Source: Cytophagales bacterium (GTDB lineage Bacteria > Bacteroidota > Bacteroidia > Cytophagales > Cyclobacteriaceae). From it: DNA of 64,000 nt. The position numbers and the translations under genes were made by a program. Location: contig JAFLBR010000006.1 in assembly GCA_017303795.1 (NCBI GenBank), positions 248,001 to 312,000 of the forward strand, given 5' to 3'. The notes beneath the pieces are model-generated. The model saw only the letters and a list, made by a program, of their open reading frames with translations. It made no database searches and was not told the DNA's origin. This document shows positions 11,201 to 38,904 of the stretch, piece after piece (position 1 is the first letter of the stretch; each line of letters starts with the position of its first letter).

Positions 11201-13025
11201 CTCACGACTGCGGCCCATTCTGATCACATCCATTACCACCATTATAGCCATGTTACCGCTGGCACTGGGCGAAGCGGAATATGTGTTGAGTATTGGTCAG
11301 CCTTTCGCAGTTACGGTTATGGGTGGACTAGCCTTCGCCACCCTGCTCACCTTGTTTTATATTCCAACCATGAGTGCAGGCTTAGAGAGTGTACTTGATT
11401 GGTTCAGAAATTTAAAGCCCGTGATAAAAGTCATACAGATTGTACTGATGGTTGTTACCGGAGCATTTATATCGTTGCAGATAGAAGGACTCATCTTGCA
11501 AATGATTACCTACATCGCGGCCATTATTTTAATTCCAGGTGGTACACACTTCATCATGTCATCCTTGCGCCAGGCCAATGCCGAAATGGTGGCACCCGGT
11601 GAAGCAATGCACATCAAAATTCAAAACCTTACCAAAGTGTATGGCCGCGATAAACGATGGATAAGAGAGTGGAAAGGAAATAAAAATCTGTTTAATACCA
11701 GAGGTGAAGAACCGATAACCAGGCGTATCGTATTGCAAGACCTTATCTGGCAGATCGCCTTGATTAGCTTCCTGGTTTATTTTGTATACTTCCATTTGGA
11801 TAAAGCATTCTGGCAACTGGTCTTTATGATTTCTTTGCATGCATTGTTGATATTCATGCTTAACCGGGCCGGACAATTGCTTGCTCATAAGCAAAAACTG
11901 TTAAGCATCAGCAATAGCTTACTCTACTGGGGCTTCCCGATGCTAAGCGCCATCTATCTTTACAGCGATGTACAGATCAAAGCCTTTGGAATAATACTCA
12001 TCATCTTGTGGTTTATCGGGCTCTTCCTGGTACGCGCTTCCAAAAACCTGAAGGAGAATCCTGTTGATGTAATGGATATCAAAGGACGATTCAGGAAGAT
12101 TCGAAAACTGTATTATAAATTGTTACTCGCCATTCCTTTTGTGAAACCAAAGAAAGGCGAGTTCAAAGCACTCAAGGGCGCCAACCTCACAATCGAACAA
12201 GGTATGTTTGGATTACTGGGCCCCAATGGTGCCGGTAAGACAACCTTGATGCGGATTCTTTGTGGTATTCTCGATCAGAGTTATGGCAAGATCTGGATTA
12301 ATGGTCATGACACTACGTTACGAAGAGAAGAACTGCAAGGGCTGATTGGTTATCTTCCTCAGGCCTTCGGTACTTATGAAAATATGACGCCTTATGAGTT
12401 CCTGGATTATCAAGCCATTCTGCGAAAAATTTCCAATCAAGTCGAAAGAGAAAAAAGAGTGCAATATGTGCTCAAGGCGGTGCATATGGATGAGCATCAG
12501 CACAAGAAGATCGGTTCCTTCTCTGGCGGAATGAAACAACGCATTGGGATTGCGCAGATTCTTCTTCACCTTCCAAAAATATTAGTAGTCGATGAACCAA
12601 CGGCTGGTCTCGATCCATTGGAGCGGATTCGGTTCCGAAACTTGCTGGTGGAACTCAGTCGTGAACGAATCGTGGTGTTCTCTACCCACATCATCGAAGA
12701 CATTGCGAGTAGCTGTAATAAGCTGGCGGTGCTCATCTCCGGAAACATAGAATACATTGGAAGTCCTACTACCATGGCCGAACTGGCTAACGAAAAGGTG
12801 TGGGAATTTCACCTGACACCCAATGAATTTGAACTAGAGAAAGAAAACTATATGATTGTACACCACATGCGCGAAGGTGACCTCATCCGCGTAAAGTGTT
12901 TATCAGACGAACGTCCACGCGTGGATGCCGTGCAGGTGCGTGCTAATCTGGAAGATGCTTATTTATGGTTGATGAAAAGTAAATCCAAAAAGAAAAATGA
13001 AAAGCTCTCTCCTGCTACTGTATAA
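8292..13025 (+). CDS. RND permease fused to an ABC transporter ATPase
   Basis: An unusual 1577-residue fusion. Residues 1-~1040 form a complete second RND pump (TM4 motif GMLVDNSVVVIEN with Asp404). Two extra hydrophobic segments follow at ~1045-1085. An ABC ATPase domain then starts at Met1106 (IKIQNLTKVYG), but after its first strand it is interrupted by ~190 residues with four likely membrane helices. It resumes near residue 1297 with Walker A GPNGAGKTT (1310-1318), signature SGGMKQR (1411-1417), Walker B LVVDEP (Asp1434, Glu1435) and H-loop His1466. All ATPase motifs are intact. I chose the ATG at 8292, which overlaps the upstream stop, over the TTG at 8280. The 3' end overlaps the small permease gene by 29 bp, so the ATPase and that permease are probably partners. 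Confidence 0.9.
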   Translation: MGNSSLLKTIIRRKVLISMLFIGFTVMGYISYTKLPVELFPNVELPILIVHVQSATDVDPKYMERQAIVPLESAISTLEGVAEITANADSRQGMIFISFQQGVNIKYAYLKLEQKVGAIKTSLTPEFFVNIIKIDSKDFLNGFMDLQVLGSGGVDRVRNIADQYITERLNDVDGVGGVEVFGGRQKTVEIIMHSAICEANGITPNTISNVLSRNSNKSAFAGQVEMEGQKVFVNVTAELKDIKNIQSLVVSEKGPLLLSDVADVFFGVKEQTSLSRVNGKEAVSIRVSKDPQANLIALSDRTLEAINAINKDLEPMDVQIIVESNQAETMSRNIDQIKELAITGGLLAIFVLWVFLRRMKFILSIALSIPISIFTAFNFFYAYDISINSLTLIGMALAIGMLVDNSVVVIENIYRHVVNKVPREEAVVRGTSEVMRSVTAATLTTVTVFLPFIFSTNFLVTLIGTHIGVSIIATLLVSLVVALVLIPMLADTAIRKKDQHEAPLIKNASIRQRIIQIYVVVLKSCFRRPMFTVVGGLVLFFVTIGVSLIVSIAGSTEVETPEMNLFVTMPQGSTLESTDLKIRKIEERVMEIPVVEKVISQVSEVEGVITIKLVEGFNDLDTTSVGDIRNKLSGLSKDFSDVTIALEKPPSQNSGNGGAGNSAEQDFQRMLGIGTASERIIIKGQDFELMQTIGQDINTLISGLQSVQQSSVNLSPERPEAHLVFDQKRMSENQVTLQNVAVALNDFQPSFTSGSNFISGGEEYEITIRTQNQVITRAKEMRNLREMKVSSTTGATHGFSDIGTALYSSGESTITRMNQEKRIQITYNFIDEVTKSKALQESSRLEIDQIVAGVNIPSGIVVDVVHDEGLFNDFFFLIFAAIVIIFMILAGVFESLYLPIVIMFSIPLAGIGALMGLTLTGNSMLSANTLIGFLILLGVVVNNGIILIDYSRILRREGYTKYRALIMSGISRLRPILITSITTIIAMLPLALGEAEYVLSIGQPFAVTVMGGLAFATLLTLFYIPTMSAGLESVLDWFRNLKPVIKVIQIVLMVVTGAFISLQIEGLILQMITYIAAIILIPGGTHFIMSSLRQANAEMVAPGEAMHIKIQNLTKVYGRDKRWIREWKGNKNLFNTRGEEPITRRIVLQDLIWQIALISFLVYFVYFHLDKAFWQLVFMISLHALLIFMLNRAGQLLAHKQKLLSISNSLLYWGFPMLSAIYLYSDVQIKAFGIILIILWFIGLFLVRASKNLKENPVDVMDIKGRFRKIRKLYYKLLLAIPFVKPKKGEFKALKGANLTIEQGMFGLLGPNGAGKTTLMRILCGILDQSYGKIWINGHDTTLRREELQGLIGYLPQAFGTYENMTPYEFLDYQAILRKISNQVEREKRVQYVLKAVHMDEHQHKKIGSFSGGMKQRIGIAQILLHLPKILVVDEPTAGLDPLERIRFRNLLVELSRERIVVFSTHIIEDIASSCNKLAVLISGNIEYIGSPTTMAELANEKVWEFHLTPNEFELEKENYMIVHHMREGDLIRVKCLSDERPRVDAVQVRANLEDAYLWLMKSKSKKKNEKLSPATV

Positions 13026-21098: not shown

Positions 21099-21791
21099 AA
21101 CTTACCTTCCATCAGAAATCAACAACTCCACCCGTCTGTTTTTCTTACGACCATCCTCCGTTGTATTCTCTGCCATAGGTCTTGAACTACCCTCACCGGA
21201 AGTTTCAATGCTTTTAAGGTTAACACCATTGCCCACCAGGTATTCGGCCACTACATCGGCTCGTTGTTTCGATAATGTCAGGTTATGTGCTTCTCTTCCG
21301 GTGTTGTCGGTATGGCCTGAGATTTTAACCGAACGTTCCGGATGCGCAAGCAGGTAGTCAACAATTGGATTGAGTGTAGGAAAATGTTCGCTACGCAATG
21401 TTGATTTGTTGGTTTCAAATAAAAGCTCAGCCCCTAATACAATCAATGTATCGGACATAACTTTTGCAACTTCCATTGCTATTGGCTGTGTAACGGTAGT
21501 ATCCACAGCAATAGGTATTACTTTTTTAACTGGTGGCTTACGCGTGATGGTTGTATCTACCCGGATGTTTTGATAAGCACCGCGTTTCGCATTGCGGGCA
21601 ATCTTCTTTTTGAATTTTTCATAACTGATGGCCTGCAAGGGCGCAGTATGCCCCGACTGAATGCGGCACAGTCTGCGGAAGCAGAGTACTTTGCCAAACA
21701 CAGAATGCCTCGAATTTTTGTTTACGCGCTTCAGTCGCTCCTTATTGGCGCCACTCAGATGAGACACCATCATCGGCATTTTCGCGTTGCC
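21099..21791. repeat. ompA direct repeat, copy 1
   Basis: Matches 30351-31043 over 693 bp in the same orientation, with no indels in the 229 shared codons and roughly 90% identity by eye. The right edge is sharp at 21791/21792, where the sequence switches to the padR leader. Confidence 0.9.
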
Positions 21792-21815
21792 ATAAGTACC
21801 TTTAATTTGTTTCAC
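21102..21815 (-). CDS. Chimeric OmpA-like protein lacking a signal peptide
   Basis: A 237-residue protein. Residues 9-237 are almost identical to the OmpA-like protein encoded at 30354-31142, including the peptidoglycan-binding OmpA domain (~125-237; SGHTDNTGREAHNL, RKKNRRVELL). Residues 1-8 (MKQIKGTY) are instead the start of the PadR protein (MKQMKGTY), and the upstream DNA is the padR leader. The native export signal is therefore missing, so the product is predicted to stay in the cytoplasm or be non-functional. It is probably a young fusion product of a duplication. The frame has stayed open and differences from the intact copy are modest, so decay is recent or some function is retained. 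Confidence 0.8.
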   Translation of the reverse strand: MKQIKGTYGNAKMPMMVSHLSGANKERLKRVNKNSRHSVFGKVLCFRRLCRIQSGHTAPLQAISYEKFKKKIARNAKRGAYQNIRVDTTITRKPPVKKVIPIAVDTTVTQPIAMEVAKVMSDTLIVLGAELLFETNKSTLRSEHFPTLNPIVDYLLAHPERSVKISGHTDNTGREAHNLTLSKQRADVVAEYLVGNGVNLKSIETSGEGSSRPMAENTTEDGRKKNRRVELLISDGR

Positions 21816-21969: not shown

Positions 21970-24837
21970 ATGAAGCTGAATTTTACTGCTCTTCTGTTTC
22001 TCATCGCGCTCCTAGCGCAAGCTCAGGAACGAATAATCTCAGGCAGGCTTACATCAACAGATGATGGAAGTCCCCTACCCGGTATCAACATCACCATTAA
22101 AGGAAGCTCCACTGGTACCGTTACCGATGCAAATGGATACTACTCAATACGGGTACCTATTGGAGCCACGCTGGTGTATTCATTTATCGGTATGCAAACC
22201 CGTGAGGTTGTAGTAACAGAAAATAATCTAAAATCGGGTAGCTCAGGTAATCAACGTATCAAAGAAACCAAGAACAAGTCTGTTCCGGTACCGCGATCCT
22301 TTTATGATACTGTTCATTTAAATCAAACCGGGCTGGCCACATTTACTGACGATATGCCTGCCTATCGCAGCACAAGCAAGATTAATCCGGCAACGATTAG
22401 AGCAATAAAAATTAAAGGTAAAACCTATTACATTAAATCAGATACTGATCCCACATTGCCAAAAGGTTTTGCCATCCAGTATGCAAACACATTTGGGTTG
22501 GAACAGATAAACAAACTGCCGGCTCTGCAGCGTGCATACGCGCAAGGCCGAACCAATGGAAGTTCATTACAATGGGTGGGTGCAGATCAACAGGAAATTT
22601 TTTCATGGGGCCCGCTAACCCGAATGCTGGAGTTTGACGGAAGCCCTAATGACTTTGATAAAAATGGAAGCTTGGTACCAGTCGGAACAGGAATCGGCAA
22701 CGCTGCCAAAATCTATAATCCAATGTCGTTATTCAGAACTGGTTTTGTGCAAGCCAATGAGTTAACGTTTAATCGCACGTTAGCACGAAACGGCAGCTTT
22801 AATTTTGATGCTGAGCACAGAACTCGAAGTGGTGTAATTCCAAATTCGCGATACCAGAAAGTTAACCTGGCCGCTACACTTAAAAATTTTTACCTGAAAG
22901 AAAATCTACACCTCAACGGTTCAGTGTCATTTAATCGCTCTACCGGTAATCTGCTTAACCGCGGGGCTAATCTCACTTCTATTATAGGAGCTGTTTACCG
23001 CACCCCGGTTACATTCGATAATACCAATGCGCTTGCAAAAAGAGCAGCGATCAATGGTACTGAGTCATATCGTTTGCCAGATGGCACATTACGATCTCAC
23101 GCTGCGGGATTGGTCGATAATCCATACGGACTAATTAGCCAATTACCTGATACCGAAACACTGAATCGTTTGCTTGCTACCACCAATTTGCGCTATCAAC
23201 CCAAAGGCAAATTTGATTTTGTATTTAACGGCAATCTCGATCAGCAGTGGAACACAAGCAGGTTTGGAATTCCACCGGGTTATTCAGGTACAACCGCTGG
23301 TAGGTTAACAAGGCGTAACGATAATCAGGCCTATGCCACCTCAATTTTTGCAGCAAATTATTTACAGAGTCAGGACAATAATGAATTCAAACTCGCGCTC
23401 ACTTACCAAACTGAATATCTTAATCGCGAATTGAATCGCTTGGATGGATTCGGATTTCAGTCCCAAGAAAACTTCAGCAATCCGCAACAGGCTGATTCTG
23501 TTGCATCGCTAAACAGAGATCAATATCGCACTACCCATCAACTTACTCTAAAGGCTCACTACGAATGGCAATGGCTCAATGCTTTTATCTTAAACAGAAA
23601 TTATTTTTCAAATACTGTTAACTACCAACACTATGTAAATTTATTTCCCACGGCCAGTATAAGTGTTGATATTAAGCAGTTATTGGATTTATGGTCTATT
23701 AATCAACTAAAACTTTATTCAACTACAAGCCGCAGTATTCGCGAGGCACCGTTACTCTATTCAAATTGGTCATACCAATCATTGGCTTTGCAAGCCCAAC
23801 ACTATTCACAGTTTTATGAGTCAGATGAAATTCTCTTCAACCGGTTGGTGGCCCCAGAAACAGAATGGAAATCGGAGCTTGGATTAAAGTTTGATGCGAA
23901 CAGGCTAAGTGCCGAGGTATCGTGGTTTGGCAACACCACAGCTAACTTCATTGCACCCGTAAATTCTCCACAAGGGTTCAGGCTTAGTAATACCGCCACT
24001 ATTCAAAACCGTGGCTGGCTTATTTCGGGTCGGTACATCACCTACATACCGCAAGGCAATTGGTCAATTGATCTGAAGTGGAGTAAATACAACAGCGTGG
24101 TAAAAGAACTTTATTCCCCAGCCGATTGGATTGCGTTAGCCGGCTTTAGTGAAGTACAACAGGTATTGGCAACGGACAAACCGGTAGGCGCTATTTATGG
24201 AACCTCCTATCTAAAAAACGATGCTGATCAAATTATTATCGGTGCCGATGGCTTTCCAATAAAAGACAGTAACCTGAAAATGATCGGCAATCCAATTCCG
24301 GATTGGACACTGAGTCTGGCTTCTTATACCAACTGGAAACAATTCAAACTCTCAATCCTTTTTGATTTTAAAAAAGGTGGCGAGATGTGGAATGGTACCA
24401 GCAGCGCGCTGGATTACCTCGGTAGATCGCAACATTCAGGTGAGTACCGAAACTTATCGATTTTTCTGTTTGAAGGTGTTAATGACAGTGGTAACCCAAA
24501 TCTGGTTCCGGTAAGTTTTTACAATCCTGCTAATCCGTTAGCGGATAACCGGTGGGTACGATATGGCTGGGATGGTGTAGGCGAAGACTACATAGAAGAT
24601 ACTTCGTGGATCAGGTTAACAGAGTTGGCACTCTCCTACACTACCCGATATAAAGTTATACATGGCATTAAAAGCATCCGGCTCTCACTGATTGGTCGAA
24701 ATCTTTTTGTGATTACACCTTATACCGGAGTTGATCCGGCTGCATCGCTGTTTGGCTACAGCACCACACAAGGATTAGATCTTTTCAATACACCATCGGT
24801 ACGCAGTTACACCGCACAAATCACTTTAACATTTTAG
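21970..24837 (+). CDS. SusC/RagA-type TonB-linked outer membrane barrel without a plug domain
   Basis: A 955-residue protein with a signal peptide (1-18) and a carboxypeptidase-regulatory-like domain (~20-85; SGRLTSTDDGSPLPGINITI). After ~85 further residues comes the SusC post-plug region (GLEQINKLPALQRAYAQG at ~176-193, FSWGP at ~211) and a barrel that ends in an outer-membrane C-terminus with terminal Phe (ITLTF). SusC features such as RTGFVQANELTFN and SLIGRNLFVITPYTGVDP are clear. The ~115-residue plug expected between the regulatory domain and the barrel is absent: there is no VVVxGYG motif, no ALQGRVAGV-type segment and no IRG motif. The next gene, 3 bp away, contains exactly that domain. 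No SusD-like gene is present. The simplest reading is a two-piece receptor. Confidence 0.85.
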   Translation: MKLNFTALLFLIALLAQAQERIISGRLTSTDDGSPLPGINITIKGSSTGTVTDANGYYSIRVPIGATLVYSFIGMQTREVVVTENNLKSGSSGNQRIKETKNKSVPVPRSFYDTVHLNQTGLATFTDDMPAYRSTSKINPATIRAIKIKGKTYYIKSDTDPTLPKGFAIQYANTFGLEQINKLPALQRAYAQGRTNGSSLQWVGADQQEIFSWGPLTRMLEFDGSPNDFDKNGSLVPVGTGIGNAAKIYNPMSLFRTGFVQANELTFNRTLARNGSFNFDAEHRTRSGVIPNSRYQKVNLAATLKNFYLKENLHLNGSVSFNRSTGNLLNRGANLTSIIGAVYRTPVTFDNTNALAKRAAINGTESYRLPDGTLRSHAAGLVDNPYGLISQLPDTETLNRLLATTNLRYQPKGKFDFVFNGNLDQQWNTSRFGIPPGYSGTTAGRLTRRNDNQAYATSIFAANYLQSQDNNEFKLALTYQTEYLNRELNRLDGFGFQSQENFSNPQQADSVASLNRDQYRTTHQLTLKAHYEWQWLNAFILNRNYFSNTVNYQHYVNLFPTASISVDIKQLLDLWSINQLKLYSTTSRSIREAPLLYSNWSYQSLALQAQHYSQFYESDEILFNRLVAPETEWKSELGLKFDANRLSAEVSWFGNTTANFIAPVNSPQGFRLSNTATIQNRGWLISGRYITYIPQGNWSIDLKWSKYNSVVKELYSPADWIALAGFSEVQQVLATDKPVGAIYGTSYLKNDADQIIIGADGFPIKDSNLKMIGNPIPDWTLSLASYTNWKQFKLSILFDFKKGGEMWNGTSSALDYLGRSQHSGEYRNLSIFLFEGVNDSGNPNLVPVSFYNPANPLADNRWVRYGWDGVGEDYIEDTSWIRLTELALSYTTRYKVIHGIKSIRLSLIGRNLFVITPYTGVDPAASLFGYSTTQGLDLFNTPSVRSYTAQITLTF

Positions 24838-24840
24838 CTT

Positions 24841-27800
24841 ATGAAAAACAAACATTACATAAATCTGGCTATCAGTTCACTTCTGATTATCGTTTGTGCC
24901 TTTCAAGCCATAGAAGAACCTGAATTTATTAGCAGGTTAAAAACCAGTCTTAGAACGTACAACCAAAACTTAACCGAAGAAAAGGTGTATGTGCAATTGG
25001 ATAAGCCATTCTATAAACCAGGCGAAGACATCTGGTTTAATGCCTTTGTAGTTAACAGCAATTCCAACCGGCCAACCCACATCAGCGATGTACTCTACGT
25101 AGAGTTGATTGATCCGAAAGGAAATGTGGCGACCAAACTTGATCTGGTGATACGCGAAGGAACCGCCCATGGCGATTTTATGATTTCTGACTCAGCCCCT
25201 GGTGGCTTATATCAAATACGGGCATACACCCAATGGATGAAGAACTTTGGAAAAGAGAGTGGATTTAAAAGGGAAATTCAGGTGCAACGAATCATAACAC
25301 CACGCCTGTTATTAAAGTTAGATTTTGAAAAAGAAGCTTATGGGGCCGGTGAGCCAGTAAGCGCCAAGTTAACCATCAGCAATTTGAAAAATGAAAAAGT
25401 AGAAAATGCTTTGATTGACCTCACAATTAAGATTGATGGTATTACCAAACTCACAAAACAAATAAAATCTAATGCCGATGGAATAGCGACCCTTAACTTT
25501 CAATTATCCGATACCTTAACCACTACAGATGGAATTTTACAGGCTGTAGTAAATACAACTGATATTCAGGAATCAATTACACGTGCTATCCCGATTGTAT
25601 TGAACAAAATCTCAGTTCAGTTTTTACCCGAAGGTGGAAATTGGGTGCAACATGTAAACTGCCGCATAGCTTTTAAAGCGTTGAACGAATTTGGCAAAGG
25701 TGCCGATGTAGCGGGAGTTATTCTGGATGAAGAGCAAAATGTAGTAACCAGCTTCAAAAGCTTTCACATGGGAATGGGTGCATTTGAACTGAATGGTGCT
25801 GGTAATAAAAAATATTATGCAAGGATTGATAGTCCACCTGGTAATCAGACGCTCATTCCTCTTCCGGAGCCAGCAAAAACCGGATTGGTATTAAACCTGA
25901 TAAACCGGGATGACAAAAATCTTTACTGGAATCTTTATGCACCGGCAGAGACCGAAGTTTATCTGGTAGCACAAACCAATGGCGAAATACATTTTGGCGA
26001 ATATTTTAAACTAAAAGCCGGAGTAAATTCAATTACCGTTGCCACCACAAATTTTCCGGCTGGCATTACCGTATTTACCGTATTTGATCGTGAACAAACA
26101 GAACAATGCGAACGCCTTGTGTTTGTGAATAGACAAAAAGGTTTGCAAATCAAACTTACTCCCGATAAATCACGCTACCTGCCACGCGAGCAACTTAATC
26201 TTGATATTCTTACTACAGACAGCAATGGTAAGCCAATGCCGTCAAAGCTTTCGGTAAGCGTAGTGGATGACAAACTGATTTCGTTTGCCGATGATAAGCA
26301 AGACAATATTTTATCAGCCTTGCTATTGAGTTCAGAATTAAAGGGTGAAATTCAGGAACCTGCTTTTTATTTCGATGCTACAGAACCAAAAGCCATTGCC
26401 GCTTTGGATTACCTGTTGATGACACAAGGTTGGCGCAGGTTTAGTTGGAAGGAAGTAATTGCAAATAATAAACCTATTGTATTTGCAGCCGAGAAGAATA
26501 AAAACATCTCAGGTGTGTTGACTAATGATGCCGGAGCCGGAATTGCCGGGGAAGTTACCTTGCTTGAACTTGGTGGCAAGAACAGAGCCATACAGGTTAA
26601 AACCACCCGCGAAGGTCACTTCCTTTTTAGAAATACGGATCCCTCCATTCCACTATTGTTGCTTACAAAGAAGCCCGGAAAAATTTCGTTGCGTAAAGAA
26701 AGTACTTTTTCAATTTCGCTAAACGATAAGGAAGGAACAGTGTTGTTGCCGGATAATCCACAGCAAACAACTGCATTAGCCATAAAACGAATGGAGGTTT
26801 CAGAAGAAACTGATTCAGACCTGAATATGGATATGGGAATGACTGCCGATGTAACACAACTTAGTGAGGTAGTAGTTACCGGCTACGGTGTGATTGAAAG
26901 GCGCGACATGGCTGGCAGCGTTGTAACTATACAATCAGATAATCTGAACGAGCGCTTAAATGCTTCAAGTATTGAAAGCGCATTGCAGGGACGAGTTGCT
27001 GGTGTAATGATTACGCCACAAAGCGGAAATCCGGGTGCGCAGGCTAACCTTATAATTCGCGGATTTAGTTCTCTTGCCGGAGGCCGGCACGAACCTTTGT
27101 ATGTAATTGATGGCCACCCTATCGGCACCAGTCTTAACCAAAATTTTTCTAATGGTAGCATGATTGGCCCCAACGAGATTCTTTCCATACAGGTAATCAA
27201 CTCCCCCGAAGCCAGTGCTTTATATGGAAGTGCAGCCGCCAATGGTGTGATTGCTATAACTACCCGCAACCATTTAGGCTATTACAATCCGGTAAGAAAA
27301 AATAAACTCAATTATAACAGTCATGCCATTACACCACGAAAATTTTCGCGTACCCGTCAGTTTTATGTTCCGGCTATTTCAACTGATATAGAAGAGCGTA
27401 CCGACTTCAGAAGCACCATCTACTGGAATCATACCGTAGTGACAGACGCGCGCGGAAAAGCCAGTGTAACGTTTAACAACAATGATGATGTTAGCGCGTT
27501 CCGCATTACAGCCGAAGGATTTACTGGAGATGGATTAATTGGCCGAGCGGAAGAAGTTTACTATACCACGTTACCACTTGCGTTAGATGTAAAGCTTCCT
27601 GAATTTCTGGGTTATGAAGACGTATTAAAACTTCCTGTAAGAATTAAGAATGAAACGATAAACCCGGTAGAAGCAATCGTCATATTGGATTTACCCCATG
27701 GCCTTCGGGTAAAAGAATCCACACTTCAGAATATTACCATCTCAGCAGCATCTACACAAACAGTTTGGTTTACACTTTCGCCAACCGGTGTGGCTGGTAA

Positions 27801-29454
27801 CTTTCCGATTTCAATAAAACTTAAATCGAAAGCTTACACTGATGTTATAAACCATACGATCAACGTAAAGCCAATTGGGTTTCCCATGCAGCAAAGTTTT
27901 TCATCAAAGGCACAAGATCAAACATTCCGGTTTACATTAGAGGATATTGAACAACATTCGCTACAAGCAACCTTTACAGCCTATACCGATATACTGGACG
28001 ATTTGTTTACCGGTGTGGATGCTATTCTGTGCGAACCCTATGGATGCTTTGAGCAAGTTTCTTCCAGCAATTATCCAAACATTCAGGCCTTGCAGTACCT
28101 GAAGCAATCCGGCATGCCAAACAATACGGCAGAAAAACGCGCTATTAATTATCTGCAAAGCGGATACAAAAAGTTAACTGCCTACGAAATAAAAGGTGGT
28201 GGCTTCGAATGGTTTGGTCATCCGCCCGCACACGAAGGCTTAACCGCCTATGGCTTAATTCAATTTCATGAAATGCAAAAAGTATTTGACGGAGTAGATG
28301 CGAACATGATGAACCGCACGCGCAACTGGTTGCTGAGCCGCAAAGATGGCAAGGGCGGTTTCACTCAGGTATCAGGTAAATATGGATTTTCCGGTGCATC
28401 TAAAGAAGTTACCAATGCTTACATCACCTATGCACTATCCGAAACCGGAACGAAAGAACTTTTATCAGAATATCTAAATGCTTCAACAGCAGCCACACGT
28501 AGTAACGATATGTATCAGTTGGCACTTGTTGCCAATACAGCATTTAACCTGGGCCGAAATAACGAATATGCTACCCTGATAAAACTTTTCAAAGATTACA
28601 TACTTGCAAACGGATATGAAGATTTACAAGCACAGCATTCCATTGTTTGGAGCAGTGGCCATTCTTTACAAACCGAAATGTATGCGTTATGGACGCTTGC
28701 CTTACTAAAGGCACAAGCACCAGACCTTGGCCTTATTAATGGTTGCATCCGTAAGTTAATTGCGGGCAGACAGCACGGGCAGTTTGGTTCTACACAAGCT
28801 ACTGCACTATCGCTGCAAGCACTTACACAGTATGCAACCTTGGTACGCAGAATACGAACCGATGGCGATATTCAGATTTATCTCAACAACACGCTGGCTG
28901 AGAAAATTAGTTATAAAAAAGAAAGTCGGGAGAAATTAGTACTGCAGAATTTTGTAAAAGAAACTGCATCTGAACAACTATTAAGAATAAAGTTTGACAA
29001 TACTACTGAGCCACTTCCCTACTCGGTTGACTTAAAATGGTACACCAAAAAACCGCAATCAAGCGACCAGTGCAAAGTGGTTCTCAATACTTCATTAAGT
29101 ACCAAAACCATTCGCTTAAATGAAACGGTTAGGCTTGCAATTTCGCTACGCAACAAAACAAATACTGGTTTGCCAATGACGGTAGCCGTAATTGGAATTC
29201 CTGCCGGACTAAGTACGCAACCCTGGCAGTTAAAAGAGCTACAGGAAAAAGGTGTTTTTGATTTTTACGAAATTATGGGTGGCAACCTGGTGTTATACTA
29301 CAGAGAGCTTGCGCCAAAAGGAAACCAGAATATTAATCTCGATTTAAAAGCAGAGATTCCGGGTTCGTTTGTGGGTGGTACCAGTTCGGCTTATTTATAT
29401 TATACCAACGAGTTTAAGCATTGGGTTGGTGGAAATACGATTGAAATTCAGTAA
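24841..29454 (+). CDS. Alpha-2-macroglobulin-family protein with embedded TonB-receptor plug domain and thioester motif
   Basis: A 1537-residue exported protein (signal ~1-22). In order: MG2 (~45-150; VYVQLDKPFYKPGEDIWF), further MG-type domains (~150-560), a carboxypeptidase-regulatory-like fold (~565-640), a complete SusC-type plug (~674-810; EVVVTGYG, ALQGRVAGV, LIIRGFSSLAGG, LYVIDGHPI, ANGVIAITTRN), the A2M core domain (~835-950), a thioester/terpenoid-cyclase-like domain with GCFEQ (Cys1069 to Gln1072), and a C-terminal receptor-binding-like domain. The plug occupies the place where a protease bait region would precede the A2M domain. The gene starts 3 bp after the stop of a SusC-type barrel that lacks a plug. 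Known members trap proteases or act in surface transport; here I infer that the plug docks in the neighbour's barrel. Confidence 0.88.
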   Translation: MKNKHYINLAISSLLIIVCAFQAIEEPEFISRLKTSLRTYNQNLTEEKVYVQLDKPFYKPGEDIWFNAFVVNSNSNRPTHISDVLYVELIDPKGNVATKLDLVIREGTAHGDFMISDSAPGGLYQIRAYTQWMKNFGKESGFKREIQVQRIITPRLLLKLDFEKEAYGAGEPVSAKLTISNLKNEKVENALIDLTIKIDGITKLTKQIKSNADGIATLNFQLSDTLTTTDGILQAVVNTTDIQESITRAIPIVLNKISVQFLPEGGNWVQHVNCRIAFKALNEFGKGADVAGVILDEEQNVVTSFKSFHMGMGAFELNGAGNKKYYARIDSPPGNQTLIPLPEPAKTGLVLNLINRDDKNLYWNLYAPAETEVYLVAQTNGEIHFGEYFKLKAGVNSITVATTNFPAGITVFTVFDREQTEQCERLVFVNRQKGLQIKLTPDKSRYLPREQLNLDILTTDSNGKPMPSKLSVSVVDDKLISFADDKQDNILSALLLSSELKGEIQEPAFYFDATEPKAIAALDYLLMTQGWRRFSWKEVIANNKPIVFAAEKNKNISGVLTNDAGAGIAGEVTLLELGGKNRAIQVKTTREGHFLFRNTDPSIPLLLLTKKPGKISLRKESTFSISLNDKEGTVLLPDNPQQTTALAIKRMEVSEETDSDLNMDMGMTADVTQLSEVVVTGYGVIERRDMAGSVVTIQSDNLNERLNASSIESALQGRVAGVMITPQSGNPGAQANLIIRGFSSLAGGRHEPLYVIDGHPIGTSLNQNFSNGSMIGPNEILSIQVINSPEASALYGSAAANGVIAITTRNHLGYYNPVRKNKLNYNSHAITPRKFSRTRQFYVPAISTDIEERTDFRSTIYWNHTVVTDARGKASVTFNNNDDVSAFRITAEGFTGDGLIGRAEEVYYTTLPLALDVKLPEFLGYEDVLKLPVRIKNETINPVEAIVILDLPHGLRVKESTLQNITISAASTQTVWFTLSPTGVAGNFPISIKLKSKAYTDVINHTINVKPIGFPMQQSFSSKAQDQTFRFTLEDIEQHSLQATFTAYTDILDDLFTGVDAILCEPYGCFEQVSSSNYPNIQALQYLKQSGMPNNTAEKRAINYLQSGYKKLTAYEIKGGGFEWFGHPPAHEGLTAYGLIQFHEMQKVFDGVDANMMNRTRNWLLSRKDGKGGFTQVSGKYGFSGASKEVTNAYITYALSETGTKELLSEYLNASTAATRSNDMYQLALVANTAFNLGRNNEYATLIKLFKDYILANGYEDLQAQHSIVWSSGHSLQTEMYALWTLALLKAQAPDLGLINGCIRKLIAGRQHGQFGSTQATALSLQALTQYATLVRRIRTDGDIQIYLNNTLAEKISYKKESREKLVLQNFVKETASEQLLRIKFDNTTEPLPYSVDLKWYTKKPQSSDQCKVVLNTSLSTKTIRLNETVRLAISLRNKTNTGLPMTVAVIGIPAGLSTQPWQLKELQEKGVFDFYEIMGGNLVLYYRELAPKGNQNINLDLKAEIPGSFVGGTSSAYLYYTNEFKHWVGGNTIEIQ

Positions 29455-30350: not shown

Positions 30351-31043
30351 AACTTACCTTCCATCAGAAATCAACAACTCCACCCGTCTGTTTTTCTTAC
30401 GCCCTTCCTCAGTTGTATTATCCGCAATAGGTTTTGAACTACCCTTGCCGGAAGTTTCAATACTTTTAAGATTAACACCATTGCCCACAAGATACTCAGC
30501 CACTACATCGGCTCGTTGTTTCGATAATGCCAGGTTATGTGCTTCTCTTCCGGTGTTGTCGGTATGGCCTGAGATTTTAACCGAACGTTCCGGATGCGCA
30601 AGCAGGTAGTCAACAATTGGATTTAGTGTAGGAAAATGTTCGCTGCGCAATGTTGATTTATTGGTTTCAAATAAAAGCTCAGCCCCTAATACAATCAGCG
30701 TGTCGGCTTTTACTTTTGCAATTTCCATTGCTATTGGCTGTGTAACGGTAGTATCCACAGCAATGGGTATTACTTTTTTAACTGGTGGCTTACGCGTGCT
30801 GGTTGTATCTACCCGGATGTTTTGATAAGCACCGCGTTTCGCATTGCGGGCAATCTTCTTTTTGAATTTTTCATAACTGATGCGCTTCATGGGCGCATCG
30901 TGGCCGGCCTGAATGCGGCACAATCTGCGGAAGCAAAGCACTTTGCCAAATACAGAATGTTTAGAGTTTTTGTTTACCCGCTTAAGACGCTCTTTGTTTT
31001 CACCGCTCAGGTGGGAAACCATCCACGGCATTTTGGGATTACC
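30351..31043. repeat. ompA direct repeat, copy 2
   Basis: Partner of 21099-21791. The two copies flank the barrel/macroglobulin/dioxygenase block in direct orientation about 8.6 kb apart, so homologous recombination between them would delete that block. Confidence 0.9.
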
Positions 31044-31142
31044 GTATTCGCGCCCAATCTGGTTAGGAGGCCCCACATATTTTTTTTGAGCCGAGGCACA
31101 GCATGCTCCTAGTAGAAAAAAAACTAACAGACCTATTTTCAT
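30354..31142 (-). CDS. OmpA-family protein (intact copy)
   Basis: A 262-residue protein starting at the ATG at 31142, which gives a proper signal sequence (MKIGLLVFFLLGACCASAQ). LGAC could be a lipobox, or cleavage may follow ASA. An upstream ATG at 31196 would add 18 residues before the signal and is less likely. A basic middle region (KFKKKIARNAKRG) and a Pro/Thr linker precede the OmpA peptidoglycan-binding domain in the last ~115 residues (FETNKSTL, SGHTDNTGREAHNLALSKQR, RKKNRRVELL). It is monocistronic on the minus strand and is the apparent parent of the chimeric copy at 21102-21815. Confidence 0.88.
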   Translation of the reverse strand: MKIGLLVFFLLGACCASAQKKYVGPPNQIGREYGNPKMPWMVSHLSGENKERLKRVNKNSKHSVFGKVLCFRRLCRIQAGHDAPMKRISYEKFKKKIARNAKRGAYQNIRVDTTSTRKPPVKKVIPIAVDTTVTQPIAMEIAKVKADTLIVLGAELLFETNKSTLRSEHFPTLNPIVDYLLAHPERSVKISGHTDNTGREAHNLALSKQRADVVAEYLVGNGVNLKSIETSGKGSSKPIADNTTEEGRKKNRRVELLISDGR

Positions 31143-31435
31143 GTGCAGGTTGGTAAGGGCAAGTACGGCTTCGCATCCACATCTACCAACAAGCACCGCT
31201 ACTTTACGAAGTTCTGAACGGAAGGTAGGTAACTATTATTGTATTGCTACAGAGGAAATCTTCCTCGCCCCGACAGGGTTGATACCCAGACTAAGGAATC
31301 TCTCGATAAAAGCACAGTAATTGTATCTTGTTATACTAGGAACTTCTCTTGAGATTTTAAGGTCGATCGTAAGGGTATATAAACTTTTTAAAGTACGTAA
31401 TATGCTAACATAACACTGTCATGATATAACAAAAT

Positions 31436-33811: not shown

Positions 33812-34693
33812 TTATTCCGGTATCTCAATAAGTACCTCTTGCTCTAGTCCTTTTTTGCACTTCAGAATCAGATGGAATAAGAAAGTTAATTCATCCGTGT
33901 GTTGTGCTTCTATGGTATTGACCAAATGCTTCTGCTTTTCAAAAAGCTCATCTTTACCATACTGGTTAAGCAGGTGCTCCAGGTTTTCGGGTAATAAAAA
34001 GCGTCCGCGGTTACCGTTAATCTTGTTTTTAAATTCCGACAGATAGATGTGAATTCCTTTCAGATCAAAATCGCCAAAATGAACATACGGGTTGGGAATA
34101 GCATTTAACCAACTGGCAATCGCATTACTGTTCTGGTATCGCCAAACAAACAATGGCTTTAAGGTCTTGAACAAATACTGTTGCCGTTGTATCTCTCTAA
34201 AATTTTCGTGCCCTTCCACCACTACTACCGTTACATCGGCTGGTATTGAAAACGTAGCCCACGAAACAATAAATGGAAATACTCCGGCTATGGGCTGCAC
34301 AGTGTAAGGCACACTATCAAGCGTACACGCAAGCGGTTCATAACTGTTAACAAGAAAACCGGAAAAGACGTTAGTCTTTTTAAACTTCGAATCGGAAGCC
34401 GCGATCACAGCATCGGCACGCGTTGTTTCTTCCTGTTCTAAAAAGTGCACGTAATTTTCCAGCGAAGGAATTTCAAATTTATGATGCAGGTACAACCGTA
34501 AGTTATCCGCTTGCTGACAATAAACTTTTTTCTGTTGCCTGCCTACCAATCGGTAATCCAGTGCATGATCCGCAATTAATTGATCAACTAATTTTCTGTT
34601 GGCTCCTGAACCAAACTGCGAATAATTCAATTCCTCTCCCAACATCATCTGTTGAAGCAGCCGGGCAAGCGAATAGGAAATTCTGCTCTTCAT
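33812..34693 (-). CDS. Toprim-domain protein, JetD/MksG-like (DUF2220-type) nuclease subunit
   Basis: A 293-residue protein. A likely DNA-binding N-terminal half (~1-130) is followed by a Toprim-like core: VVVVEGHENF places Glu160 at the first metal-binding motif and VHFGDFDLKGI supplies the DxD pair (Asp208, Asp210). This matches the arrangement in JetD/MksG proteins, which cleave DNA engaged by an SMC complex. It lies 3 bp after the end of the SMC C-terminal fragment and is the last gene of the mksF-mksE-mksB operon. It is shorter than classical JetD (~390 residues). I infer a plasmid- or phage-restricting role from the family; a chromosome-maintenance role is the alternative. Confidence 0.75.
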   Translation of the reverse strand: MKSRISYSLARLLQQMMLGEELNYSQFGSGANRKLVDQLIADHALDYRLVGRQQKKVYCQQADNLRLYLHHKFEIPSLENYVHFLEQEETTRADAVIAASDSKFKKTNVFSGFLVNSYEPLACTLDSVPYTVQPIAGVFPFIVSWATFSIPADVTVVVVEGHENFREIQRQQYLFKTLKPLFVWRYQNSNAIASWLNAIPNPYVHFGDFDLKGIHIYLSEFKNKINGNRGRFLLPENLEHLLNQYGKDELFEKQKHLVNTIEAQHTDELTFLFHLILKCKKGLEQEVLIEIPE

Positions 34694-34696
34694 GCT

Positions 34697-35248
34697 TTAT
34701 GGTTCTACACTCATGGTGAGCAACGGAATCACCTTGACATACCCGTGATTATCTTTTCTGAACTTGTAGGTATAGTTGTAATGCGTTTCGAGTTTACTCT
34801 CGTTGGGCAAACCGTTGATCAGGCAGATGTTGCGCTCTTCGGCAAAGGCAATCAGCTCCTTCAGGTACGGAGCGGAGATCTGCCCTACTTCATCAATAAT
34901 GCAATGCACCTTAAAGTTGCGCGAAGTCTTTTCGGTAGATTCTTTAATGAACACGTTGAGCAACGTAATGTAGATCACCGCCTTCACCAGCATATCGGTA
35001 CCGGTAGAACCCACCTTATCAATCTTCTCGATCCAGCCGGTGTCGTTCTTCCCTTCCTTGATACGGAAGCGCAGTTCAAACAAATCCTTCACGTTGATTT
35101 CTTCGTACCGCTCTTCGGCAATGGCTTTTTGTAAATCGCCCAACAAATCAACCGAACGTCTGTCGATTTCACCTTTGCCTTTTATACCGGGTGTTAAACA
35201 GGTTGGCTTCGCCATACAAGAACGGATTTTGTTCGCGGAAGTCGGCAA
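34697..35248 (-). CDS. C-terminal part of the SMC-like ATPase MksB/JetC, separated by a frameshift
   Basis: This frame holds the missing C-terminal ATPase half: the GSTGTDMLVKA signature-like segment and the Walker B VHCIIDEVGQ. The real coding part starts near residue 21 (GIKGKGEIDRRSVDLL, about 35186); the ATG at 35248 lies inside the upstream frame and is not a natural start. A +1 shift at the CCC or AAAA run around 35182-35195 joins it to the upstream frame and gives a protein of about 1228 residues. As the sequence stands, Walker A and Walker B are on separate frames, so the ATPase would be inactive unless the shift is a sequence error or is bypassed during translation. Confidence 0.75.
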   Translation of the reverse strand: MPTSANKIRSCMAKPTCLTPGIKGKGEIDRRSVDLLGDLQKAIAEERYEEINVKDLFELRFRIKEGKNDTGWIEKIDKVGSTGTDMLVKAVIYITLLNVFIKESTEKTSRNFKVHCIIDEVGQISAPYLKELIAFAEERNICLINGLPNESKLETHYNYTYKFRKDNHGYVKVIPLLTMSVEP

Positions 35249-38200
35249 TGCGCTGCAGCTTGCGCAGCACTTTGTTCTCGCTGTCTTCCGATTTCAGTTT
35301 TATGTATTCAATCAGGCGCGAGCCTTCAAAAGACGCTTTGCTGAAGTCGCCCTCCATTTTGCTGATCATACGACTGATGCGTCCTTTAAACTCGGTAAGC
35401 GCCCGCATCTTACTGGCAATGGCATCAATCAACATGCCGTGGCTTTTGGCTACTTCGGCAATTGAAATTTTGATTTTGTCTTCAGCATAAAACTCTTCGA
35501 GGTACGAAGCAAAACGTTCGAACTCCGCCTCGCCACCTGCAGTATTAATTCGAAAGTTAAAATGGTTATCGGTACGAAACCGCCCCGCAAACTCACTCAC
35601 GTTCTCTCTAAACTTACCAAACTGCGCATGAAACTCGTTATCATTAGCCTGAAGCTGCGAACACAAGGCGGTTATGCTAAGCTCAGTGCGACCCGCAGGT
35701 TCCTGATCGATAAGGTGCCGCAGACGGTCATAAAGTATCCGATCTCGAAAATGATTGTCAAAATGATGCAATCCATCCGCAAATTCTTTCAACTGGCTAT
35801 GCAATTGTTTCAGTTCATCATCATAAAGCTTACGTGTTTTAGCATAGACTTCCCGTGCTGCCTGAAAGGAAGTATCGGCCGACTTCAAACTATCTTCTAA
35901 CTTCTGTTTTTGCTGGGTAAACTCACCCACCCGATCAAATAACTCGCGCTTGTCTTTTCGGTAATCGTTAAGTAGCGTAGCCTGCTGATCAATGGCTGCA
36001 AGGGCTTGCTTCAGCGATTCAATCTCCTGCTTTAGTTTTTTAAGGCGCGTATCATCAATTCCTTTCTTCTTTAATACAGTGGTCCTCTCTTTTTGCAGTT
36101 TGCTTTTTCGCTCCTCCATATCGGCCAGCTTATCTTCGCGCTGCTCTTTAACTTTCGCTGTTTCCCGATCAAAAGCGCGTTTAAGTTTCACCAGTTTTTC
36201 CTGATAACTTTCTTCCAGTGCCCGTAAGTTGTTTTTCAATTTCTCTTCCTGCAGCTTTAATTTCTCCTGCACCGAGGCAATTTCTTTTTTCAGTTTCTCC
36301 TGTTGCTCGTAAAGGGCAACACTTTCCTGCTCGCGTTGCTGCTCACCTTTTCGTTTTAATTCATGCAGGTCGAGATTAAATTGCTGTGCTTTCTTTTCAT
36401 CCTGCTCCAGATCATATTGCACCTGTGCAATCTCCTTCTTCAGGCTGGCAATCTTCTTACTGATAGTCGCTTGCTTTGTTTGCTCTGCACGCACCTGCTC
36501 CTCGCGAAACTGCAGGAAGTTAGTGTGCAGTTCAGAAATTTTCTCACGCAGTTCACTTCGCACCTGTTCGTATTGCTCCAGCGACTTAGCCTGCACCGGC
36601 AGGTTGCTTAAGTCAAGCCGAATACCATACAATGCATCCACATTTTTTTTGATAACCTGCGGATTAAGTTCCGGGTTGAACAACAAATCCTCATGACATA
36701 CTTTGCCAATGGTTTCATACCAGGCAGGATAATGCTCCTGCAAATAACCAAACAAGGCATGCTGGTGCACCGAAAGCTTGTCATCTATCCTCTTAATCTC
36801 CGCTTCACAATTTGAAATTTCAAGTTGATTCTTTTCGGTGTACTGATCGGTTTCAATTTTGTTGCGCTCGGTGATGTGCTCACTTTCTTTTTTCAGCGCA
36901 TCAATAGCCGTGCTCTTTACTTTTAGCGAAGCTGTTAGTTCCGGTTTGCGTTTTTCGATGGCCAGTAACTTTTCTTTCAATTCGTTTACCTCACCGGCAA
37001 AGTAGTGGTGTTGCCGCAGTTGCTGTTCTTTGTGCTGCGCATCTTTTAAAGTAAACTCCAGCGTTTGCTTTTGCTCACGCAGTTGCTCGGTACTTGCAGC
37101 ATGTTCGCCTTGTTGTATGTCTTTATCTTTCAGAAACAGGTCGCGCAATTGGTTCTTTTCTTCCTGATGATTTTTATCCAACTGCAGCCCTTGCGATTGT
37201 AATACGTACTCAAACTCCCTGCGTTCATTCTCCAGCGCATCAAACAGTGTTTTAAATTGTTGTTCTACATCGCTGAAGCCGGCCGTGAGTGTAACGTATT
37301 CGTTTTCGCGCGCCTGCACATCCAACTGAAGCCGGGGTTTATCTTCCGCTTCGCGAAGCAGATCGGCTATACCCTGATCTTCATATTCTGTCTGTTTCTT
37401 TTCTGCTTCCCGCAGCTTCGATCGTAACGCACCAATCTCTTGATTGGTTTCCTTGTGGCTGTCACGATGCAGTTCTTCTTTCGCACGAAAATCCTGTTCA
37501 TGAACTTCCAGGTGCTGGCGCTTAGCTTCTACCTTTCCGCTGATCTCATCTTTTTGAACAATGGCATACTTTAGTGCTGCACCCAAATCAGCAGCCAGTT
37601 TGCGCTGCTGTATTTTTAGTCGCTGGATCGTTGAAAAATTATCGCGAATCAAATCGCTGCGCTGACTGCTGTCTTTTCGGAAAAACGTTTCGATATCCTG
37701 ATACCGTTCCGAAAACTGACGCAACTGCCGCTCAATGGTTTTCAGTTCGATAGTGGTATGCTTGGAGCCGATGGCGTTGGCAATACACTCTTTTACAAAC
37801 TCCGCCCGGATGACCGATTCGGAACTGAGGAAGATGGAAGTAATAGCCAGCGGAATGTTGTGGTAGTTGGCATTGCCTTTCATCAACGCATACTTCTTGT
37901 AACGCTTATCGGGGTCGGCACCATAAACAATGTTGCGATACCGTTCAAAGGTTTCGATCTGATCGCTGTAGTCGATCTTGTTCTCGTTAAGCCGCGCCAG
38001 CACAGCTTTGGGCAGCAAGGCTTCTTTCTCGTTGATGTAATGCTCCGGATCGAAGGCGCCATCCACAAACCGATAAAACAACTTGGTGTTGCGATACACC
38101 ATCACATGAAAAAATCCTTCTTCGGTAGCCAGTTCATACACGATGTACGAATTGGGATACTGAAAATAATAATCTTCAAAAGTTTTTTGCGAAGTAGAGA

Positions 38201-38384
38201 TACCCAGTTGGCGCGTGTTGGCACTATAGAAAAATAAAATGGCCCGCTGCAACGTAGTTTTACCCATGTTGTTGGTACCTACAAAGCAGGTGTTACCGGC
38301 TATCTCTACATTGGAATAGTCCGTATTGGCAATATTGATAAATACAATCCTGTTAAGAATTCTTTTGCTCTCCGTCATCGTCAA
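35169..38384 (-). CDS. mksB: SMC-like ATPase of the MksB/JetC type (N-terminal part, frameshifted)
   Basis: A 1071-residue frame with an N-terminal ABC-type ATPase lobe and Walker A GTNNMGKTT (36-44). Extended coiled coils (~260-560 and ~620-900) flank a hinge-like region, and the start of the C-terminal lobe follows. It ends in a short out-of-frame tail (RYKRQR); the natural continuation is in the next frame at 34697. By family knowledge it would load with the MksF kleisin-like and MksE subunits to reel in DNA. The start overlaps mksE by 32 bp; Met3 (38378) is an alternative start. The N-terminal lobe, coiled coils, partners and gene order identify it as MukB-like rather than a classical chromosomal SMC. 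Confidence 0.78.
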   Translation of the reverse strand: MTMTESKRILNRIVFINIANTDYSNVEIAGNTCFVGTNNMGKTTLQRAILFFYSANTRQLGISTSQKTFEDYYFQYPNSYIVYELATEEGFFHVMVYRNTKLFYRFVDGAFDPEHYINEKEALLPKAVLARLNENKIDYSDQIETFERYRNIVYGADPDKRYKKYALMKGNANYHNIPLAITSIFLSSESVIRAEFVKECIANAIGSKHTTIELKTIERQLRQFSERYQDIETFFRKDSSQRSDLIRDNFSTIQRLKIQQRKLAADLGAALKYAIVQKDEISGKVEAKRQHLEVHEQDFRAKEELHRDSHKETNQEIGALRSKLREAEKKQTEYEDQGIADLLREAEDKPRLQLDVQARENEYVTLTAGFSDVEQQFKTLFDALENERREFEYVLQSQGLQLDKNHQEEKNQLRDLFLKDKDIQQGEHAASTEQLREQKQTLEFTLKDAQHKEQQLRQHHYFAGEVNELKEKLLAIEKRKPELTASLKVKSTAIDALKKESEHITERNKIETDQYTEKNQLEISNCEAEIKRIDDKLSVHQHALFGYLQEHYPAWYETIGKVCHEDLLFNPELNPQVIKKNVDALYGIRLDLSNLPVQAKSLEQYEQVRSELREKISELHTNFLQFREEQVRAEQTKQATISKKIASLKKEIAQVQYDLEQDEKKAQQFNLDLHELKRKGEQQREQESVALYEQQEKLKKEIASVQEKLKLQEEKLKNNLRALEESYQEKLVKLKRAFDRETAKVKEQREDKLADMEERKSKLQKERTTVLKKKGIDDTRLKKLKQEIESLKQALAAIDQQATLLNDYRKDKRELFDRVGEFTQQKQKLEDSLKSADTSFQAAREVYAKTRKLYDDELKQLHSQLKEFADGLHHFDNHFRDRILYDRLRHLIDQEPAGRTELSITALCSQLQANDNEFHAQFGKFRENVSEFAGRFRTDNHFNFRINTAGGEAEFERFASYLEEFYAEDKIKISIAEVAKSHGMLIDAIASKMRALTEFKGRISRMISKMEGDFSKASFEGSRLIEYIKLKSEDSENKVLRKLQRIADFREQNPFLYGEANLFNTRYKRQR

Positions 38385-38904
38385 TCGTTATAAGGGTAAT
38401 CACCTGTTCCAGATAATGAATGGCATCCATTACTTTATATGTGTCTTCATCTTCCTGTTCAAAAAAACCAGATAGTGCCAGGTCACCAGCAATCTCGGCT
38501 ACTTTATCCACCATCTTCTCTCTTCGCGAAAGCGCCAGCAGTTTTTGTTTTAATCGTTCATTCGAAAAACATTCTTCTGCAATTTGCGTAACGCGGTAGC
38601 GTGTACCCGCAGTGGGCTTCTGGTCCATCGATGAAAAAAAATCCATCACATCAATGTAATAGGCAAACTGCTCAATCTTCTTTTCGATGGAAAGATTCGG
38701 CTCATCGGACTGGCTGAAGTAATAGTAGTTATGCCCGTGCTCCAGTGAATAACCGGTGTGCGCAAAAAGTTCGCGAAGCTGATTGAAGTTATCTTCAAAA
38801 CTGATGACATCATACAATTTTCCGCGGCTGCCGTTAGCACTGATAAACTGCCCGCGACTGAGGATACCGAAAATTTCAGGTGCTTGTTTAGGAATGGCGT
38901 TCAT
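38353..38904 (-). CDS. mksE: MksE/JetB-like condensin subunit
   Basis: A 183-residue acidic protein composed of winged-helix-like segments, the size expected of MksE/JetB (MukE-like), which binds the kleisin and the SMC neck. Assignment rests mainly on gene order (kleisin-MksE-SMC-Toprim), size and overall resemblance to Bacteroidota MksE. The start overlaps the mksF-like stop by 4 bp (ATGA) and the 3' end overlaps the SMC gene by 32 bp, showing a tightly coupled operon. Confidence 0.75.
   Translation of the reverse strand: MNAIPKQAPEIFGILSRGQFISANGSRGKLYDVISFEDNFNQLRELFAHTGYSLEHGHNYYYFSQSDEPNLSIEKKIEQFAYYIDVMDFFSSMDQKPTAGTRYRVTQIAEECFSNERLKQKLLALSRREKMVDKVAEIAGDLALSGFFEQEDEDTYKVMDAIHYLEQVITLITIDDDGEQKNS

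Follow-up and report, generated by a model that had tools for sequence, protein, structure and literature searches.

How can a single SusC-type receptor be divided between two genes, one encoding the barrel and the other an alpha-2-macroglobulin that carries the plug? In all TonB-dependent transporters known to us, plug and barrel belong to one chain, and the movement of the plug during transport is a long-standing question. The locus lies in a window of 64,000 nucleotides from a Cytophagales bacterium (family Cyclobacteriaceae; contig JAFLBR010000006.1, positions 248,001 to 312,000), in which a preliminary description, made from the sequence alone, had recognized the two adjoining genes and had taken their products for a candidate two-component receptor. 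Both reading frames are open on the same strand, at coordinates that agree with that description (Table 1), and the TAG stop of the barrel gene (24835-24837) is followed, after three bases, by the macroglobulin ATG at 24841. Scans of the window with Rfam (at the gathering cut-off) and for tRNAs gave no matches, and promoter and terminator patterns showed no excess there over shuffled sequences.

Table 1. Positions of the two genes in the window and of the parts of their products
Feature	Residues	Coordinates	Strand	Basis
Plug-less SusC-type barrel gene, 955 aa		21970..24837	+	ORF, Pfam, TIGR04056, structure comparison
CarboxypepD_reg-like domain	23-86	22036..22227	+	Pfam
Apparent degenerate remnant of the C-terminal part of the plug	about 118-157	22321..22440	+	alignment with plug-bearing relatives
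Post-plug region and beta-barrel	167-955	22468..24834	+	TIGR04056 211-981, model
Thioester alpha-2-macroglobulin gene with plug, 1537 aa		24841..29454	+	ORF, Pfam, model, structure comparison
Probable signal peptide without lipobox	about 1-23	24841..24909	+	by eye and motif scan
Macroglobulin domains (MG2 and following)	45-605	24973..26655	+	Pfam
Variable linker before plug	606-671	26656..26853	+	mostly low model confidence
SusC-type plug	672-810	26854..27270	+	Pfam, TIGR04056, profile alignment
Ton-box-like LSEVVVTGYG	674-683	26860..26889	+	sequence and conservation
Variable linker after plug	811-852	27271..27396	+	mostly low model confidence, poor conservation
A2M domain (PF00207)	859-947	27415..27681	+	Pfam
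Thioester domain (TED, PF07678)	1046-1331	27976..28833	+	Pfam
CFEQ thioester motif	1069-1072	28045..28056	+	sequence, conservation

The two products together tile one SusC. The SusC/RagA model TIGR04056 is shared out between them without overlap: macroglobulin residues 661-810, the sole part of that protein to be matched, correspond to positions 65-205, and barrel residues 167-955 correspond to positions 211-981, i.e. the post-plug part alone. On the BT_2264 chain of a solved SusC (5fq6), the macroglobulin profile covers residues 5-171 and the barrel profile 159-984. As had been claimed from inspection of the sequence, the barrel protein contains no Plug match by Pfam or TIGR04056, Pfam recognizing only a CarboxypepD_reg domain and a TonB barrel, and the protein encoded 3 bp downstream carries a SusC-type plug (Pfam Plug, residues 687-803, E value 1.1e-16). 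This plug scores 148 bits on TIGR04056, as compared to 147-208 bits for nine ordinary SusC plugs.

The barrel protein begins with an apparent signal peptide. Its identification as a SusC-type barrel is based on the TIGR04056 match and on a model that is closest to SusC structures, not on a count of strands; the score of 203 bits falls under the whole-protein cut-off of 368, and the best structural fits were to SusC structures, the closest being SusCD BT2261-2264. The CarboxypepD_reg-like domain was undetected in 33 of 80 homologous barrels, a few of which are truncated. When aligned with relatives that have a plug, the Cytophagales barrels seem to have retained a degenerate vestige of its final part, from which the Ton box and the plug core are missing and whose residues were modelled mostly with low confidence. 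Such an apparent remnant could be read as the trace of a degraded or misassembled SusC gene that happens to lie beside an unrelated macroglobulin, but we give this reading virtually no credence, as the barrel frames are uninterrupted in family members that share 31-53% identity, invariant residues are present in both the barrel and the macroglobulin in family alignments, and plug-less barrels from across the phylum fall into a single clade. Chance, or a one-off deletion or pseudogene, is ruled out by the recurrence of the pair and by this single clade.

The second protein has the domains expected of an alpha-2-macroglobulin, namely macroglobulin (MG) domains, an A2M domain and a TED with a CxEQ motif; Pfam matched MG2, Plug, A2M and TED, together with a weak receptor-binding-domain match. 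CFEQ is invariant in 13 of 13 aligned family members and in every macroglobulin of a 90-locus set, the larger locus set having been partly selected for CFEQ by one of the two scan patterns used to assemble it. The plug of the system, with the Ton-box-like motif LSEVVVTGYG, resides in this protein. The profile regains its match to human A2M at position 853, which corresponds to human residue 729, and the human bait region comprises residues 690-728; the plug and its linkers therefore sit at about the bait-region position. A SusC plug thus placed is flanked by linkers that are variable and mostly modelled with low confidence (identity to the window protein is 15% and 24% in the linkers and 42% in the plug). 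A model of macroglobulin residues 338-1537 gave TM-scores by query of 0.41-0.44 against native A2ML1, CD109 and Salmonella A2M, and of 0.21-0.26 against cleaved or induced A2M forms. A loose match to a lipobox was seen in 7 of 74 macroglobulin signal regions (the start of one row was not visible), and no sorting tail was found in the macroglobulin by Pfam. Because the lipobox is mostly missing and there is no such tail, the sequence fits a soluble periplasmic protein.

The division of SusC recurs in other genomes. Of 196 genomes of the family, 15 have full-length macroglobulin homologues (E values up to 1e-60), and the barrel homologues that score strongly (at least 449 bits, E values up to 1e-70) occur in the same 15; four further genomes of the genus that belong to this sample lack the pair. 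A genome collection (84,980 species) scanned with two thioester-domain patterns yielded no fewer than 546 relatives; the 80 top-ranking ones by likeness to the window macroglobulin come, by their record titles, from Cytophagales, Bacteroidales, Flavobacteriales, Chitinophagales and other groups. A draw of 395 genomes from the phylum gave 7 matches, 5 of them full length and 1 of these 5 without a plug; a draw of 395 from the class gave 60, of which 4 align through the plug and 56 only on either side of it. The plug-bearing form is widespread across Bacteroidota but sporadic, and it is a minority form.

We examined 112 different loci (90, 19 and 3 from three sets), six duplicate loci having been dropped along with L206, which has the lengths and scores of L096, and L214, which encodes the same protein as L152. 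A SusC-type plug was detected by our own profile in 88 of the macroglobulins, and a SusC barrel adjoins 84 of these 88, upstream in 82 cases and downstream in two (L104 and L156); 80 of these barrels belong to the 90-locus set and three to the three-locus set, and the remaining one (L142) is a pair that rests on 54 residues at a contig edge. None of the 81 barrels long enough to judge carries a plug, those of L100, L129 and L142 being too short for a plug call; this goes against the possibility, raised in the preliminary description, that homologous barrels normally carry a plug and only this copy has lost it. The 90-locus set includes 78 loci with an upstream barrel; in 45 of them 2 to 5 bases separate the two genes, and in six the gap exceeds 100 bases, in two of these (L061 and L064) because the macroglobulin frame is interrupted. 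In L061, an in-frame stop at about 8604 parts the macroglobulin section from the plug-thioester section, the frame of the same-genus L059 being uninterrupted.

The 24 macroglobulins without a SusC plug, which are the same protein except at the plug position, serve as a control. No SusC barrel was found beside any of the 23 with visible flanks, L063 having been left out of this count because its contig begins inside the gene. Fisher's exact test on 81/85 versus 0/23 gives 1e-19, a value that is not corrected for kinship and is based on HMMs trained on part of the same loci that were counted. The association predicted in the preliminary description is thus present: the plug tracks a plug-less neighbouring barrel, in 84 of 88 cases versus 0 of 23. 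Four plug-bearing macroglobulins have no barrel found beside them (L107, whose plug is degenerate, L150, L152 and L155), as might be expected if the plug served to compete with the plugs of ordinary SusC barrels and the neighbouring barrel were incidental; against this tracking, and with both genes in identical family genomes at the thresholds used, such competition is very improbable. The division of one SusC between neighbouring genes, and the conservation of that division, are matters of direct observation, and this part of the proposed two-component receptor is well supported. By blastp clustering, no third gene recurs in more than 8 of 90 loci.

The relatives of the barrel point to its ancestry. 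The next seven barrel matches in family genomes (242-346 bits), chosen by their barrels, are SusCs with their own plug, and all seven have a SusD-like gene beside them by Pfam. A profile of these seven SusD neighbours, which distant SusD types may escape, found no SusD-like gene beside the pair, so the partner characteristic of SusC/RagA systems is lacking by this measure; a single SusD-like gene was seen among the pair loci, in L110, where it lies on the opposite strand at a distance of about 4 kb. A quick tree of 102 barrels, which leaves out L100 and L154, unites 78 plug-less barrels, whose labels span nine or more Bacteroidota families, with support of 100 and apart from 24 ordinary SusCs; as the latter (15 from the window genome) are all of one family, the tree establishes one group and not its exact sister. 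The 15 SusCs of the window genome carry plugs, having been picked by their plug match, and are therefore no independent test. Besides the window gene, a barrel search of that genome found barrel-part matches at eight places: six are among these 15 SusCs, one, at about 240-243 kb of contig C12, adjoins a plug ORF and is apparently an interrupted SusC, and one is a 416-aa frame at C12:986.

Does the plug in the macroglobulin act as a plug? It could instead be a docking or TonB-binding module only, lying outside the lumen of a barrel that is open or otherwise closed. Plug domains do occur without barrels, the plug is of low confidence when modelled alone, and coevolution over 74 pairs (L061, L064, L121, L147 and barrels under 350 bits being left out) did not single it out among the macroglobulin domains: in raw coevolution the plug, with 9% of columns, contributed 0 of the top 1000 pairs, and its within-clade excess (z of 3.2) was similar to that of the MG domains (3.3), with the receptor-binding domain at 4.5, A2M at 2.7 and TED at 0.8. 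Nevertheless, the window plug scores like an ordinary SusC plug, and a permanently open barrel of SusC size would presumably harm the cell. Furthermore, in a plug tree of 151 columns (quick and mostly unresolved, hence weak on this point, and leaving out plugs of short MG proteins of 60 bits or less), the pair plugs are interspersed among those of SusCs, whereas a separate clade unites 13 of the 15 plugs from short MG2-plug proteins. We therefore consider a docking role alone to be rather improbable, and favour the reading of a plug supplied from a second chain.

Plugs apart from barrels are found in these short MG2-plug proteins, which in 19 loci are 652-946 aa in length, with a plug detected in 17, no thioester domain and no plug-less barrel adjoining. 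The window genome encodes three short MG2 proteins (L080, L082 and L083), with a plug detectable in two; beside them lie a gene of roughly 370 aa, which in L080, where it was tested, encodes DUF4249, and a plug-containing receptor of about 900-920 aa. A SusC-like plug is also present in a VWA protein (L213, 391-2706), which is encoded directly upstream of a plug-less barrel. In view of these proteins, lodging in a barrel is not obligatory for a plug. In L211 (2123-2593), a 156-aa protein with two half-plug repeats is likewise encoded directly upstream of a plug-less barrel, its gene adjoining genes that by eye resemble those for sigma and anti-sigma factors. In L112 the macroglobulin has a decayed plug, and all that was found at the place of the upstream barrel gene (5577-5966) is a regulatory domain of 129 aa.

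The plug position itself is occupied by other modules in some of the 24 macroglobulins without a SusC plug, nine of which were run against Pfam. The TonB C-terminal domain PF03544 stands there in L063 (732-809), L202 (846-922) and L203 (907-981), and a regulatory domain followed by another plug type in L161 (39 bits) and L204 (24 bits to PF07715), beside neither of which a SusC-type barrel was found; the other 19 have no full plug by our own profiles. These arrangements invite the tentative idea, which we hold as a possibility somewhat short of even, that the bait position is a socket for modules of the TonB system and that the plug of the pair doubles as bait, so that the stopper of a TonB-driven gate would be the trigger of a thioester trap. 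If true, the macroglobulins with a SusC plug, another plug type or a TonB C-terminal domain at this socket would constitute a family of TonB-wired traps.

Elsewhere in the window, two copies of an OmpA-family gene (21102-21815 and 30354-31196) flank the barrel, macroglobulin and PhyH genes; their proteins are 89% identical over 238 residues, and a 300-base stretch recurs with 94% identity 9252 bases apart. These copies may mark how the module arrived. One of the four same-genus genomes without the pair has a single strong OmpA-family match, and an empty-site comparison with one same-genus genome (G017) matched the OmpA gene alone, near a contig end. One ORF (8280-13025) encodes an AcrB-type pump (residues 11-1031) joined to an ABC ATPase domain (1298-1442). 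A cluster at 33812-40121 includes DUF7281 and DUF3584 proteins that are weakly similar to Wadjet JetD and JetC (23 bits each); three other proteins that were tested gave no match.

We propose that the pair is probably a two-protein TonB-dependent outer-membrane gate, with a periplasmic thioester trap providing the plug in trans. In known TonB receptors the plug lies in the barrel, with both plug ends on the periplasmic side; the macroglobulin would therefore sit under the barrel and insert its plug into the lumen from below. Periplasmic attachment is likelier than the outside cap that had also been considered, because the lipobox is mostly missing and because of this orientation of the plug ends in known receptors. 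The LSEVVVTGYG motif would be offered to TonB, and, if TonB pulls the plug, energy and gating would reach the barrel through the second protein. Membrane assembly, gating and TonB contact, which the preliminary description had included in its receptor, thus enter here as parts of a model. Two flexible tethers would hold the plug at the place of the bait region, within a thioester trap that appears intact, and, with a plug in place of the bait segment, either pore opening or proteolysis could spring the trap. Once the plug is withdrawn, an entering polypeptide or protease would meet the trap, which would be sprung when a tether is cut, or perhaps by the pull on the plug, and would bind the intruder covalently. 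The putative trap function of the macroglobulin is read from motif and fold only, and plug insertion, TonB contact and triggering are inferred. The most likely purpose is that the pore is guarded against incoming proteases, or that imported polypeptides are captured.

The same gate might serve nutrition, with the macroglobulin as periplasmic receptor or chaperone of a peptide or protein importer and the thioester tagging cargo with no part in defence; as this alternative shares the gate with our preferred model, its odds overlap with those of the latter. The closest structural match of the barrel, SusCD BT2261-2264, is a structure that we take to hold peptides. Nevertheless, a covalent trap seems wasteful for nutrition and the pair lacks the SusD neighbour that SusC importers usually have, which makes an importer of this kind unlikely, albeit one to be kept in view. 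In addition, bacterial alpha-2-macroglobulins have been proposed to function as protease traps (PMC4498604).

Should a trans-plugged gate be confirmed, the presence of a natural plug on a separate, tethered protein would make plug movement directly testable, would tie complement-related thioester proteins to a defined outer-membrane pore, and would offer bacterial alpha-2-macroglobulins a role different from the one suggested for the E. coli type. We found no earlier description of a two-protein gate of this kind; none appeared in PMC titles or the starts of abstracts among the matches listed, a search with bioRxiv and most subscription papers outside its scope. The Bacteroidota BAM complex was considered as a precedent and set aside, the word macroglobulin occurring 0 times in its paper (PMC12611786).

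Among known systems, thioester macroglobulins without the SusC plug are like the pair macroglobulin on both flanks of the plug; they differ at the plug position itself and have no adjacent SusC barrel (0/23). E. coli YfhM/ECAM and Salmonella A2M share with it the MG domains, a TED with the CxEQ motif and a native-type fold, whereas the pair macroglobulin has a SusC plug between variable linkers at the bait position and mostly no lipobox. The short MG2-plug proteins of Bacteroidota resemble it in the succession of MG domains, plug and A2M-like stretch, but lack the thioester domain and the adjoining plug-less barrel. SusC/RagA transporters (BT_2264 of 5fq6, RagA) are like the pair in barrel fold and sequence, in a plug with a Ton-box-like motif and in the frequent presence of a CarboxypepD_reg domain. 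They differ from a pair that has no SusD-like gene found beside it, and in which plug and barrel are carried by two chains, the barrel keeping at most a remnant of a plug.
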